Below, in pieces: positions 60,277 to 64,000 of a DNA stretch of 64,000 nucleotides (position 1 is the first letter of the stretch; every line of letters starts with the position of its first letter). The stretch lies in NCBI GenBank assembly GCA_002700365.1, contig PADB01000009.1, forward strand, positions 62,001 through 126,000, given 5' to 3'. Below the pieces are notes generated by a model. The model did not search any database. It saw nothing but the letters and a program-made list of their open reading frames with translations, and was not told the origin of the DNA. The position numbers were made by a program, and so were the translations under genes. This DNA is from Kordiimonas sp. (lineage in GTDB: Bacteria > Pseudomonadota > Alphaproteobacteria > Sphingomonadales > Emcibacteraceae).

Positions 60277-60762
60277 CTAAAGGTTTGCGCCCATATCTAA
60301 CGGCACACCATGTTCATTTTTGCTGGTTCGAATGGTCAGGGATGTTTTAACATTGGCAACATTAGGAGCGGGTGTCAGCTGCGTTGTCAGAAAATGCTGA
60401 AATTGCGACAAATCTTTTGCGACAATTTTCAAAATAAAATCAATTTCACCATTCAGCATATAAGCTTCGCGCACCAAAGGCCAACTGGCCACCAACTCTT
60501 CAAAAGACTGCAAATCATTTTCTGCCTGACTGTGCAACCCCACCATCGCAAACACCGTCAAGCTATACCCCAATGCTTCGGCATTTAAATCCGCGTGATA
60601 ACCACGAATATAGCCATCCTCTTCCAACGCCCGCACACGACGCAAACATGGTGGTGCGGTAATGCCAGACTTTTCCGCCAATTGGACGTTTGTAATACGG
60701 CCATCGTCCTGAAGATATTTCAGGATACGCCAATCAATTTCGTCAAATTTTACACGATGCAT
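60277..60762 (-). CDS. Lrp/AsnC-family transcriptional regulator
   Basis: DNA-binding regulator that typically responds to an amino acid. The 161 residues begin with a helix-turn-helix (about 8-60, DEIDWRILKYLQDDGRITNVQLAEK, with TAPPCLRRVRALEEDGYIRGY) and continue into the RAM ligand-binding domain (about 65-150, ALGYSLTVFAMVGLHSQ). The target genes and ligand are not indicated by neighbours: MAPEG is convergent and the kinase-like gene divergent. A leftward promoter must lie in 60763-61000. Confidence 0.93.
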   Translation of the reverse strand: MHRVKFDEIDWRILKYLQDDGRITNVQLAEKSGITAPPCLRRVRALEEDGYIRGYHADLNAEALGYSLTVFAMVGLHSQAENDLQSFEELVASWPLVREAYMLNGEIDFILKIVAKDLSQFQHFLTTQLTPAPNVANVKTSLTIRTSKNEHGVPLDMGANL

Positions 60763-61089
60763 GGGTCTCTCACGGTTTATATTTATTATGCCTCTTTGTA
60801 CTTTTAATACAATTCTCTACTATTTTCAGCAATAAAATGACGTTTTTTTATAAGATTATATTAGAACACATCGCAAACAACCATTGCCTGCGAAATCACA
60901 ACAGCCCTATCTTTCCTCTCTGTCCCGTAACGATACAGCATTTACGCAGATGTCAGACAACTGTCCCAACTTAGGTCAGTCTTTAAGTGTATTTTGTATA
61001 GAATCGAAGATTCGAACACTATATACTGTTGCTCAGGATGATCAGGGGCGATCGAATTCGCTCTCTCATTGTTGTAGGGGCGCCGGACG
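60763..61089. other. Divergent intergenic region (Lrp regulator / kinase-like gene)
   Basis: A 327-bp region with no believable gene; a rightward 83-codon frame from 60884 lacks a start signal and overlaps the kinase-like gene. It contains a palindrome made of two GANTC sites at 61001-61013. Confidence 0.6.
61001..61013. promoter_or_regulatory. Palindrome with paired GANTC (CcrM/GcrA-type) sites
   Basis: GAATCGAAGATTC is an inverted repeat with a GANTC at each arm, nested within a wider AGTGT...ACACT pair (60986-60990 and 61016-61020), 77-90 bp before the kinase-like gene. GANTC is the CcrM methylation sequence in alphaproteobacteria. Confidence 0.45.
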
Positions 61090-63369
61090 GTGGACAATCG
61101 TTTCACACAGTTTGATGATAAAATACGGAATTTAATTGAACTGGCTCAGGACAGCTCAAAAGAAAGCCGCACGTTACTTTTTCATCATATATGTGATCTG
61201 TTTTTGCAGGGCCGCGTCCCGAATGCCAAAAGCCAGCGGCGCATGTTACGGGAAATTATGTATGAACTTCTCTCCCGGGTTGATTTAACCGTCCGCCGGG
61301 AAATTGCCGCCCAGATATGTGATATTTCCAATCCCCCTTCAGATCTGGTGCAGGTTTTATCAGAAGACGAAATTGCCGTGGCGGGCCCCCTACTCGACCG
61401 GGCGATTATCCCCGACGAACAGCTCATTTACATTATTCGGCATGGCAGCGAAGCCCACCGCCTGCGCATCAGCCGTCGTTTTGGCCTGTCCCCCATGGTC
61501 AGGGCTGAACTCGAACGGATGGAAAGCAAAACCCAGGCAACCGGTGTGGAAAGCGAAGATGACAGCCCTGCAATGGCACCGGAACTTCTGGACGAACAAA
61601 CCACTGCGGATATTCTGTCAATTATACGCCAACAAGTGACACAGGAACAAAACGACCTGATGAGGCCTGATACATCCACGCATGATGTTGAGCATAAGGT
61701 TCCGCAAGGCGGCCCAAGCCACCCTGAAGGGCAGTCCCCAAAAGGTACGCCCCCCCCCGCTTCAACACATCAATTTCACCGTCCCCTCGCCCGTAGTATT
61801 CAGGAACTGACACAATCAGACCCCACGGGCAACACGGCATCAACAAAAAAAGATCAACAGAAAACGGGCGTCACCGCATCTGAATATGCCCCTCAGACTC
61901 ATACGGCCTCTCGCCAAACACCGCCTGAGGACACACCCCCGTCGTTACACCCCTCTAATGAAAATCGCCGCCCACAACAAACAACAAACACGCAAAAGCC
62001 CACTGCACCGGAAACACCTTCCCACGATCACAAGCCCAAGGTCACATTGGTCGGCGAAGACCCCGGTTTGCAAAAAGACATAAATGCGCGGCTGCATGAT
62101 ATTCAATCCACCTCCCAACAGCAGGCCGATTACGGCCGTGCATCCGCAGATTGGTACTGGGAAGTTAACCGCGCCGGCACCGTCAGCTTTATTTCCGATC
62201 AGGCTTTTGTCCCCTTTGGCCGCCCGCCACAAGCCTTGGTCGGTGAATATTTTGCCGATTTATGCCAAATTGCCGCGACCGAATTATCAGAACACAATCC
62301 CCATGATGGTTTTGATGAACTTTTTGAAAAACGCAGCTCTTTCCGTGACATCCCCTTTACGGTGATTTCTGCAGATGGTCTGGCGTCTTCCTGGTTATTG
62401 AGCGGCGTTGCCGTATTTGATACCCATTCCGGCCGCTTTCGCGGCTTCCGTGGCAGCGCCCGACAGGACCAGATGAAACTGTCCGATGACATCACAGATG
62501 ACACGAATACGCCCCCCGCGCCAGAAGACGCCGCCGCCCGCCAAATGACGATGCCCGCCAATGGCACAGACGGCACTACTCACCCGCTTCATATCCCAGA
62601 AGCAGCAGAAACCGGACATACTGATCACTCTCCACAAGTCGCCGCTCATCAGGCGGTAGAGATGATGCAGCAACTGAGTCACGAATTTCGCACCCCGTTA
62701 AATGCCATTATCGGATTTTCAGAAATGATCGACACAGAAGCGTGGGGGCCCATTAATGACCGCTATCACAAGCAAACCCACAATATCTTGTCTGCAGCCC
62801 ATAATTTGAAAAATGTCGTGAATGACATTCTGGACGCAGCAAAGCTGGATGCACAAATAGAAGAATTACACCCTGAGTCTTTTTCCTTAAAGGCACTGCT
62901 TAAAGACTGTCTACAGACAATAGAGGCCGAGGCACGAGACAGGCGCGTAAGCATAGAAAGTGGTGACAATAATATTGATGTTATCGTTCACAATGACCCG
63001 AAAGCCATTGCCTTTTGCATTACGAAAATGCTAATCGCCTCCATAGAAGGCGCACAGGCGGGGGACAGCATGTCTTTATCTATTTTGGTCAACAGTGATG
63101 GCCATATTAGAATCGAAACTCCCCTTCTCGGCGAAAAAATAACAGATTCAGAACAGGAAAACCTGTTTATCGAACCTGATTTCCTCGACAAAAAAGACAA
63201 TAATAGACCTGCACCGGATATTTTTTCAAAAAAAATTGGCCCCGGTTTCGGGCTAGCCATCGCCAGGAAAATGGCCGAACGTCTTGGCGGCACACTGAAT
63301 GTCGTCAGTCAGGACGGGCTGGTCACTCATCTGGCCCTGCAAATAAGTAACCTGCCAAAAAATCCGTAA
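61090..63369 (+). CDS. Histidine-kinase-like protein with degenerate ATPase domain
   Basis: A soluble 759-residue protein. Residues 1-160 are helical and DUF2336/HEAT-like (RMLREIMYELLSRVDLTVRREIA); 185-340 is a Pro/Thr/Gln-rich disordered linker; about 350-450 resembles a PAS domain (DWYWEVNRAGTVSFI); 520-590 is HisKA with LSHEFRTPLNAIIGF (His531). The C-terminal HATPase-like part keeps the G2 box (GPGFGLAIARKMAERLGG) but has no recognisable N box Asn (KAIAFCITKMLIASIEG) and no D-x-G-x-G G1 box (IRIETPLLGEKI). It starts with GTG. It may be a pseudokinase or a phosphatase/scaffold; target unknown. Confidence 0.85.
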   Translation: MDNRFTQFDDKIRNLIELAQDSSKESRTLLFHHICDLFLQGRVPNAKSQRRMLREIMYELLSRVDLTVRREIAAQICDISNPPSDLVQVLSEDEIAVAGPLLDRAIIPDEQLIYIIRHGSEAHRLRISRRFGLSPMVRAELERMESKTQATGVESEDDSPAMAPELLDEQTTADILSIIRQQVTQEQNDLMRPDTSTHDVEHKVPQGGPSHPEGQSPKGTPPPASTHQFHRPLARSIQELTQSDPTGNTASTKKDQQKTGVTASEYAPQTHTASRQTPPEDTPPSLHPSNENRRPQQTTNTQKPTAPETPSHDHKPKVTLVGEDPGLQKDINARLHDIQSTSQQQADYGRASADWYWEVNRAGTVSFISDQAFVPFGRPPQALVGEYFADLCQIAATELSEHNPHDGFDELFEKRSSFRDIPFTVISADGLASSWLLSGVAVFDTHSGRFRGFRGSARQDQMKLSDDITDDTNTPPAPEDAAARQMTMPANGTDGTTHPLHIPEAAETGHTDHSPQVAAHQAVEMMQQLSHEFRTPLNAIIGFSEMIDTEAWGPINDRYHKQTHNILSAAHNLKNVVNDILDAAKLDAQIEELHPESFSLKALLKDCLQTIEAEARDRRVSIESGDNNIDVIVHNDPKAIAFCITKMLIASIEGAQAGDSMSLSILVNSDGHIRIETPLLGEKITDSEQENLFIEPDFLDKKDNNRPAPDIFSKKIGPGFGLAIARKMAERLGGTLNVVSQDGLVTHLALQISNLPKNP

Positions 63370-63608: not shown

Positions 63609-63794
63609 ATGAAAACTCTTATTCATAAATTACGTAAGTCAGAAAAAGGTGCAACTGCGATCGAATACGGTCTGATTGCTGCTCTGGTTGCTGTTGCAGC
63701 TATTGGTTCTATGGGCGCTATTGGTGACGGCGTAGGCGAAGCCTTTACAGACGTTAAGACTGAGCTGGCTAACGAAGGCTTTGACGGTACTTAA
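63609..63794 (+). CDS. Flp family type IVb pilin
   Basis: Major subunit type of tight-adherence (Tad/Flp) pili. The 61-residue prepilin has a short basic leader and a TadV-type cleavage site after Gly14 (KSEKG / ATAIEYGLIA), with the invariant Glu19 (mature position 5) and Tyr20, then a hydrophobic helix (LIAALVAVAAIGSMGAIG). GGAG precedes the ATG. The next gene encodes another TadV-type precursor; the rest of the tad/cpa cluster is presumably beyond the right edge. Confidence 0.96.
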   Translation: MKTLIHKLRKSEKGATAIEYGLIAALVAVAAIGSMGAIGDGVGEAFTDVKTELANEGFDGT

Positions 63795-63898: not shown

Positions 63899-64000
63899 AT
63901 GCGTACCCTCACATACATACGTTTCCTGCAAAACCTGTTGCAACGGGACCTGCGCCATAATCAGACCGGGGCCACCGCGATCGAATATTCCTTGACACTC
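63899..64000 (+). CDS. Second Flp/TadE-like pilin precursor, 3' end outside the window
   Basis: Starts with ATG after a well-placed AAAGGAG and runs off the edge. The 34 visible residues have a longer basic leader than the first pilin and the site QTG / ATAIEYSLTL, cleavage after Gly24, Glu29 being the invariant mature Glu5. It could be a second Flp pilin or a TadE/TadF-type pseudopilin; the cut prevents a choice. Leader length and Ser in place of Gly after the Tyr separate it from the first pilin. Confidence 0.8.
   Translation, partial: MRTLTYIRFLQNLLQRDLRHNQTGATAIEYSLTL

Follow-up and report, generated by a model that had tools for sequence, protein, structure and literature searches.

A histidine kinase (HK) relative that has lost its ATP-site motifs and kept its phospho-acceptor histidine is encoded at positions 61090 to 63369, on the forward strand, of a 64-kb window of Kordiimonas sp. 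contig PADB01000009.1 (the window is the whole stretch of DNA that was analyzed). The 759-residue protein is designated pseudo-HK here. Loss of the ATP site proved to be shared by its homologs, and in two families of this order its gene stands at the head of the Tad (cpa) pilus cluster, which is closed at its far end by a PAS kinase, designated TadHK. The reading that we favor, with somewhat less than even confidence, is that pseudo-HK is the acceptor half of a split or heterodimeric kinase formed with TadHK for Tad pili.

Loss of the ATP site in pseudo-HK and its homologs

Families of the order are denoted f1 to f8, with f1, the family of the source genome, taken as Emcibacteraceae. A search of 60 relatives recovered full-length pseudo-HK orthologs in most f1 genomes. 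The open reading frame (ORF) begins with GTG and was judged to be real. The listed f1 orthologs also carry a GTG there, shifted by one codon toward the anchor motif. All features of the gene are on the + strand. The dimerization and histidine phosphotransfer (DHp)/HisKA domain occupies about residues 516 to 590 (62635-62859), with a HisKA Pfam match over residues 524 to 588 (E = 1.5e-14). Its H-box, SHEFRTP (residues 530 to 536), is invariant in f1 and provides a phospho-accepting His with an adjacent acid, the HExxT pattern being kept in the core from His531 to Thr535 (62680-62694). The catalytic and ATP-binding (CA) domain that follows, here called pseudo-CA (about residues 600 to 756; 62887-63357), is HATPase-like, with a HATPase_c Pfam match over residues 636 to 746 (E = 1.3e-4) that falls under the cutoff of that family. 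Upon alignment, the former N-box (KMLIA, residues 646 to 650; 63025-63039) was found within ITKMLIASIE, with the Mg-ligand Asn replaced, and the former G1 box (LLGEK, residues 679 to 683; 63124-63138) was found within IETPLLGEKI, with no DxGxG; the G2 loop (GPGFGLAI region; 63238-63261) is retained and reads GPGFGLAIA. Both the N-box Asn and the DxGxG of a functional HisKA kinase are therefore missing. An earlier note on this DNA had described a degenerate histidine kinase with His531 and the G2 loop kept and with the N-box Asn and D-x-G-x-G box lost, and both descriptions were borne out by the ORF and by the alignment.

Every fetched homolog with a recognizable H-box was included in the motif alignment (20 from f1, 4 from f4, and 20 from f6; n = 44). 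Neither the Mg-ligand Asn nor an intact DxGxG was present in any of the 44. His-Glu was retained in all 44, followed by the phosphatase Thr in 42 and by Ser in 2. In the same alignment, the ATP-site motifs were intact in eight of eight paralogous kinases that are paired with an SpbR-like gene (described below) and in five other kinases of the source genome. The G2 loop was kept in f1 and was lost as well in f4. Ratios of nonsynonymous to synonymous substitution rates (dN/dS; Nei-Gojobori method, computable pairs) were 0.03 to 0.06 in the DHp domain, 0.07 to 0.16 in pseudo-CA, and 0.15 to 0.37 in the linker that precedes the PAS-like region; several other pairs had saturated dS, and L019/L021 (0.44 in pseudo-CA) was left out of account, as N runs or a frameshift disrupt the C terminus of L021. 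Both pseudo-CA and DHp are under purifying selection. Since the loss extends to 44 of 44 homologs and the dead domain is under selection, loss of the ATP motifs is an old family trait and not a local lesion. The same observations support the suggestion of the earlier note of a pseudokinase or phosphotransfer scaffold. One f1 genome (G017), although 99% complete, gave no match to pseudo-HK or its N-terminal domain.

An AlphaFold2 (AF2) model of residues 500 to 759 (pLDDT 77) has a DHp-CA fold, so that the fold is kept and the ATP motifs are lost, as in pseudo-HKs of the RetS and DivL kind. The best Foldseek matches of the model were to the kinase region of RetS (E = 5e-16), which was also the best sequence match of pseudo-HK in the PDB; DivL was also among the matches. 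VIA-align ranked DivL first (4q20; Z = 18.7, root mean square deviation [rmsd] = 5.3, 224 residues aligned), with RetS (6dk7; Z = 17.9, rmsd = 3.5, 216 residues aligned) among the ties, which lie within 1 and include ordinary kinases. The modeled fold is thus a kinase fold, and the fold alone does not single out a mode of action.

The Tad cluster and a kinase with the reciprocal lesion

Downstream of pseudo-HK lie genes encoding Flp pilin, prepilin peptidase, and CpaB-F/TadB-C. In f1 and f4, pseudo-HK opens this cluster and TadHK closes it; in the source genome TadHK is an intact-looking PAS kinase gene on the same strand, 12 kb farther along (G000:C3:137570-138679). Among 18 loci examined for TadHK, two (L254 and L255) ended too early to show it, and in the 16 that were long enough (13 from f1 and 3 from f4) it closed the cluster on the same strand in every case, as it did also in L264 and L265. 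TadHK of one f4 genome (G051) is on another contig. Close TadHK orthologs (E ≤ 3.1e-74; 61 genomes) were found in five of five f1 and four of four f4 genomes and in none of the 52 genomes of f2, f5, f6, f7, and f8, where the best match was 1.1e-54. Tad pili themselves, detected by RcpC (PF16976), are nearly universal in the order (79 of 80 genomes), so what sets f1 and f4 apart is the arrangement and not the pilus. For the same reason, the RcpC test could not discriminate on whether retention of the HK module depends on Tad pili, and that proposition was dropped.

The ATP-site motifs of TadHK (N-box Asn, DxGxG, and G2) are all kept. Its H-box in f1 is HHNF(K/R)TP or HHTFRTP, such that the acid after the phospho-His was gone in 13 of 13 sequences and in 3 more (16/16). 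In HisKA kinases, the acid at this position is described as activating the His by serving as a general base (PMC7005713). Among 98 distinct DHp stretches from the loci gathered to that point, 80 had HE and 2 had HD, and the 14 in which His was not followed by an acid were all TadHK (the source gene being counted twice); the remaining two rows had a Y in place of H and a gap, respectively, and a pattern search following up the Y-for-H row found nothing. Judged from these motifs, the lesions in f1 are reciprocal: pseudo-HK has an acceptor and a base with no ATP site, and TadHK appears to be ATP competent with no base. Moreover, the whole Tad cluster between the two genes was deleted in two f1 genomes. 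In G013 (L261:12934-13464), the first ~64 residues of pseudo-HK are fused in frame to the CA domain of TadHK (81% identical to residues 314 to 420 of L247), and in G027 (L262:8312-9598), the N-terminal domain and PAS region of pseudo-HK continue in frame as the final 22 residues of TadHK (91% identical to L251). The breakpoints differ, which indicates two events.

These observations lead us to favor a split kinase in f1. Pseudo-HK would be a conserved cytoplasmic protein of the Tad locus that makes no use of ATP through its own CA domain and keeps the acceptor and phosphatase face (DHp, HExxT); its likely partner would be the ATP-competent TadHK from the other end of the cluster, which in f1 lacks the acid to activate its own His. 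Upon pairing, TadHK would supply ATP for trans-phosphorylation, and pseudo-HK would supply the His531-Glu532 acceptor, the docking site for a response regulator, and the phosphatase face, with its SpbR-like N terminus serving placement, perhaps at a cell pole. The output might set the production or position of Tad pili, either through a response regulator whose gene lies elsewhere or through CpaE, which has a receiver-like domain. That domain (L039:10934-12172 and orthologs) is the nearest receiver-like domain and a weak match; by eye, the acidic pair, the Asp, and the Lys appear to be kept in f1, and the acidic pair is altered in f4. Caulobacter CpaE is described as having an atypical receiver domain and as being needed for polar localization of the pilus machinery (PMC13170226, PMC6581867). 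A precedent for dividing an acceptor and an ATP site between two proteins is provided by CheA3/CheA4 of Rhodobacter sphaeroides, and the same source puts the share of HisKA proteins that could be split and bifunctional at up to 1.7% (PMC3591291). CheA3 and CheA4 differ from the pair proposed here in that they lack whole domains, whereas pseudo-HK and TadHK both keep a full DHp-CA with reciprocal point defects and are of the HisKA, not the CheA, type. A fuller version, in which Emcibacteraceae run Tad pili with a reciprocal HisKA pair, only the heterodimer phosphorylates, on the His of an ATP-dead partner tethered by its SpbR-like repeat, and the pair arose by stepwise degeneration from a state still seen in f4, is more tentative still. 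If true, this would be a HisKA heterodimer that is unable to work without its partner and is tied to a surface-attachment organelle. In the parts of the Tad-pilus literature that were consulted, kinases flanking the cluster were not described, which does not establish their absence from print.

Several points weigh against the pairing of pseudo-HK with TadHK. Twenty of 21 members from f6 keep the H-box with no close TadHK ortholog and no Tad genes alongside, so retention of HE does not need TadHK. The reciprocal lesions are confined to f1: the f4 TadHK keeps its acid (SHDLRTP; HD in 3/3) and may be self-sufficient there. Tad pili are present in genomes with and without a surviving HK module. 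Shared synteny does not amount to physical contact and might reflect no more than a sister relationship of f1 and f4. For the His-Asn H-box of TadHK, inactivity is presumed here. The two deletions are supportive only, as they come from metagenome-assembled genomes and a contiguous loss takes neighbors whatever their function. Finally, no response regulator gene lies beside pseudo-HK or TadHK.

It is also conceivable, if doubtful, that pseudo-HK is an antagonist of the RetS kind, which would form a heterodimer with TadHK or another HK and lower its output through a block of autophosphorylation and through HExxT phosphatase action, with no phosphorylation of pseudo-HK. RetS of Pseudomonas aeruginosa likewise combines a DHp with HExxT and a CA fold without usable ATP motifs, and it is reported to act on GacS as a phosphatase and autophosphorylation inhibitor (PMC5992135); its standing as the best PDB and Foldseek match and the retention of HE and of T or S in 44 of 44 homologs would fit. 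The resemblance, however, is fold and HK wide, with VIA-align ranks close to ties, and inhibition leaves unexplained why f1 TadHK lost its own acid, a defect that already cripples it as a target. Pseudo-HK further differs from RetS in having no receiver domains (no Response_reg match was found in a Pfam scan, and the protein ends after pseudo-CA at residue 759), an SpbR-like N terminus, a single PAS, a link to Tad genes, and a presumed partner with an H-box defect of its own. Given the reciprocal lesion, the split kinase is preferred in f1 and RetS-like inhibition is ranked second. DivL of Caulobacter, which has Tyr in place of the His and several PAS domains, is an alphaproteobacterial PAS-DHp-CA pseudokinase of the same fold, and by analogy the DHp of pseudo-HK might bind a phosphorylated single-domain regulator of the DivK type, or the CpaE domain with its Asp and Lys kept, and pass on its state via the PAS and pseudo-CA regions with no phosphotransfer. 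The first, if tied, rank of DivL in VIA-align and the matches of the DHp to PleC/DivJ/PdhS-type kinases (NCBIfam PdhS, 9.4e-20; DivJ, 5.9e-16) are consistent with such a reader, as is the description of DivL as a pseudokinase that has neither kinase nor phosphatase activity and binds DivK~P (PMC4211667). We nevertheless consider it unlikely, as pseudo-HK, in contrast to DivL, keeps His531-Glu, which suggests chemistry. Pseudo-HK also differs from DivL in having one PAS-like region and in the loss of the N-box Asn and DxGxG.

Slightly less likely again is a vestigial kinase carried on a scaffold, in which the N-terminal repeat and PAS region do the work and the HK part decays at family-specific speeds. 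At the same carB-greA-lrp locus, the HK part is unrecognizable in f5, the His is lost in f2, and the module is shortened in f8, with the H-box gone in 26 of 26, 2 of 2, and 2 of 2 loci, respectively (the f8 locus L166 is cut by a contig end), and the N terminus and PAS are still there in these families. Against this, the DHp is the most constrained part of the protein in f1, pseudo-CA is constrained too, and the H-box residues are invariant. That pseudo-HK is an active kinase whose ATP-site motifs are displaced, the case that the earlier note had named as its own refutation, is very improbable: HATPase_c is still weakly recognized, the G2 loop is kept in f1, and ThkA CA structures fit the model, but the Mg-position Asn and DxGxG are gone throughout the family, the G2 loop is gone from f4 too, and no replacement motif is evident. 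Histidine phosphotransferases of the ChpT type also consist of a DHp and a degenerate CA and make no use of ATP. Pseudo-HK differs from these in having no PF10090 (HPTransfase) match at E ≤ 1 in the Pfam scan, and the genome has a ChpT-like gene of its own at C3:39540.

The N-terminal domain and graded decay of the kinase module

Residues 1 to 152 (61090-61545) form an all-helical repeat domain, as indicated by profile matches and by the AF2 block, in which the all-helical prediction has high confidence (pLDDT at least 86 over residues 21 to 150). The domain resembles the N-terminal part of SpbR/DUF2336. The SpbR model NF052659 (358 residues) matched residues 17 to 146 (E = 3e-10), over model positions 8 to 136 only and at 39.8 bits, under the curated cutoff of 400 bits, such that pseudo-HK is not placed in the SpbR family. 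DUF2336 (PF10098) matched residues 97 to 141 only (E = 4.5e-6; 46 of 262 profile positions), and its score of 26.7 bits was likewise under the gathering cutoff of 34.6. By profile comparison, SpbR is the better fit; thus the helical repeat part of the DUF2336-like N terminus proposed in the earlier note stands, and the DUF2336 label does not. The N-terminal ~150 residues of pseudo-HK are homologous to the N-terminal third of SpbR, and unlike SpbR, pseudo-HK has this part only, fused to PAS-DHp-CA. No PDB structure gave a confident match to the domain (best E = 0.02), and no function was drawn from its fold. Caulobacter SpbR has reportedly been tied to cell-pole development. A literature search found nothing on DUF2336, on SpbR with PopZ, or on the CpaE receiver domain with TadZ, which does not show that such work is absent from print.

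The 150-residue linker of the earlier note was recovered as a weakly constrained stretch rich in P, T, and Q at about residues 181 to 335 (61630-62094). What that note had missed is a PAS-like domain at about residues 336 to 458 (62095-62463), assigned from the PAS families found in some orthologs; the Pfam scan of pseudo-HK itself detected no PAS, and among 13 family members PAS_9 was found in 3 and PAS_4 in 1. The highest 19-residue hydropathy mean was 1.49, which makes a transmembrane segment unlikely.

The gene order carB-greA-lrp (divergent)-pseudo-HK was found in f1, f2, f4, f5, and f8, and in f6 the gene lies beside lrp. The H-box was kept in 20 of 24 f1 loci, all 4 f4 loci, and 20 of 21 f6 loci, and the four f1 loci without it comprise two contig ends (L048 and L051), the deletion in G027, and a split gene in G003. 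The decayed loci are L133-L155 and L157-L161 (f5, with L137 from f8 and L141 and L152 from f2 among them). Decay is graded, from loss of the ATP site only, to loss of the G2 loop, of the His, and of the whole module, which makes it possible to test why a dead kinase is retained; pseudo-histidine-kinases such as DivL and RetS have been known one by one, in contrast to the present case of one carried at a fixed locus by an entire order. In the split gene (L045:2075-4494), two overlapping ORFs encode 532 residues (N-terminal domain and PAS) and 276 residues (DHp-pseudo-CA), which reflects either a frameshift or a natural gene fission.

At the class level (385 genomes), strong matches to the N-terminal domain were nearly all stand-alone proteins of ~400 residues, and of the six long-frame cases retrieved, only one, the f6 gene of G036, clearly resembled pseudo-HK. 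The stand-alone SpbR-like copies of the source genome match SpbR over most of the model. In eight of eight loci looked at, an SpbR-like/DUF2336 gene is directly followed by a canonical PAS kinase gene (G000:C1:281046-283834 [L038:3032-5868] and L206-L212), a pair that is conserved across the order, with a second SpbR-like gene nearby in some. This conserved pairing suggests that SpbR-like proteins may work with kinases, and the pseudo-HK gene links the SpbR-like domain to kinase signaling. Since its best kinase paralog and its best nonfused DUF2336 paralog are neighbors, pseudo-HK may have arisen as a fused copy of such a pair, that at C1:281-284 kb of its own genome being suggestive. In a tree, the pseudokinases, the pair kinases, and the other kinases of the source genome formed three separate groups, with pseudo-HK not placed with the pair and with long branches flagged.

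The upstream region and neighboring genes

Divergently transcribed from pseudo-HK is a gene for an Lrp/AsnC-type regulator (60277-60762, - strand), which was detected in 78 of the 79 loci fetched from six families (f1, 23/24; f4, 4/4; f8, 2/2; f2, 2/2; f5, 26/26; f6, 21/21). The earlier note had pointed to an upstream palindrome with two GANTC sites, and this is present: GAATCGAAGATTC at 61001-61013, two GANTC sites with a 3-nt spacer, lies 77 to 89 nt upstream of the pseudo-HK start codon and is the sole GANTC-N3-GANTC of the window, in which 83 GANTC sites were found compared to ~247 expected from base composition. Both GcrA and a RAMA-domain (CcrM-type) protein are encoded in the source genome. 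The element is not conserved in relatives. A close GANTC pair was found upstream of none of 22 other orthologs, any GANTC within 320 nt was found in 6 of the 22, and in the lrp-pseudo-HK intergenic region of 25 f1 loci GANTC was depleted (9 found versus 19.4 expected). The pair thus appears to be unique to the source genome among the orthologs examined, and since relatives have fewer GANTC sites than expected at the locus, the proposed CcrM/GcrA control is not supported; GANTC was rejected as a conserved control element. The cell-cycle link drawn in the same note loses its direct support along with GANTC control, and the gene's context points to Tad pili instead. A CtrA box (TTAA-N7-TTAA) in the intergenic region was also rejected (1 found versus 2.6 expected in 25 loci). 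Elements that are conserved in f1 intergenic regions (60763-61089 in the window) are a ATTATATTA-type box, at 60855 here, and TTTTAACTGGCT followed by a TATATT-like box, the latter element being poorly kept in the source genome. From their conservation, the ATTATATTA box and TTTTAACTGGCT...TATATT are better regulatory candidates than GANTC.

The first gene of the Tad/cpa cluster, which continues past the window end, encodes an Flp/Fap pilin (63609-63794, + strand). A second small ORF resembling Flp pilin (...TGATAIEYSLTL...) has its ATG at 63900 and runs off the end of the window (63900-64000).

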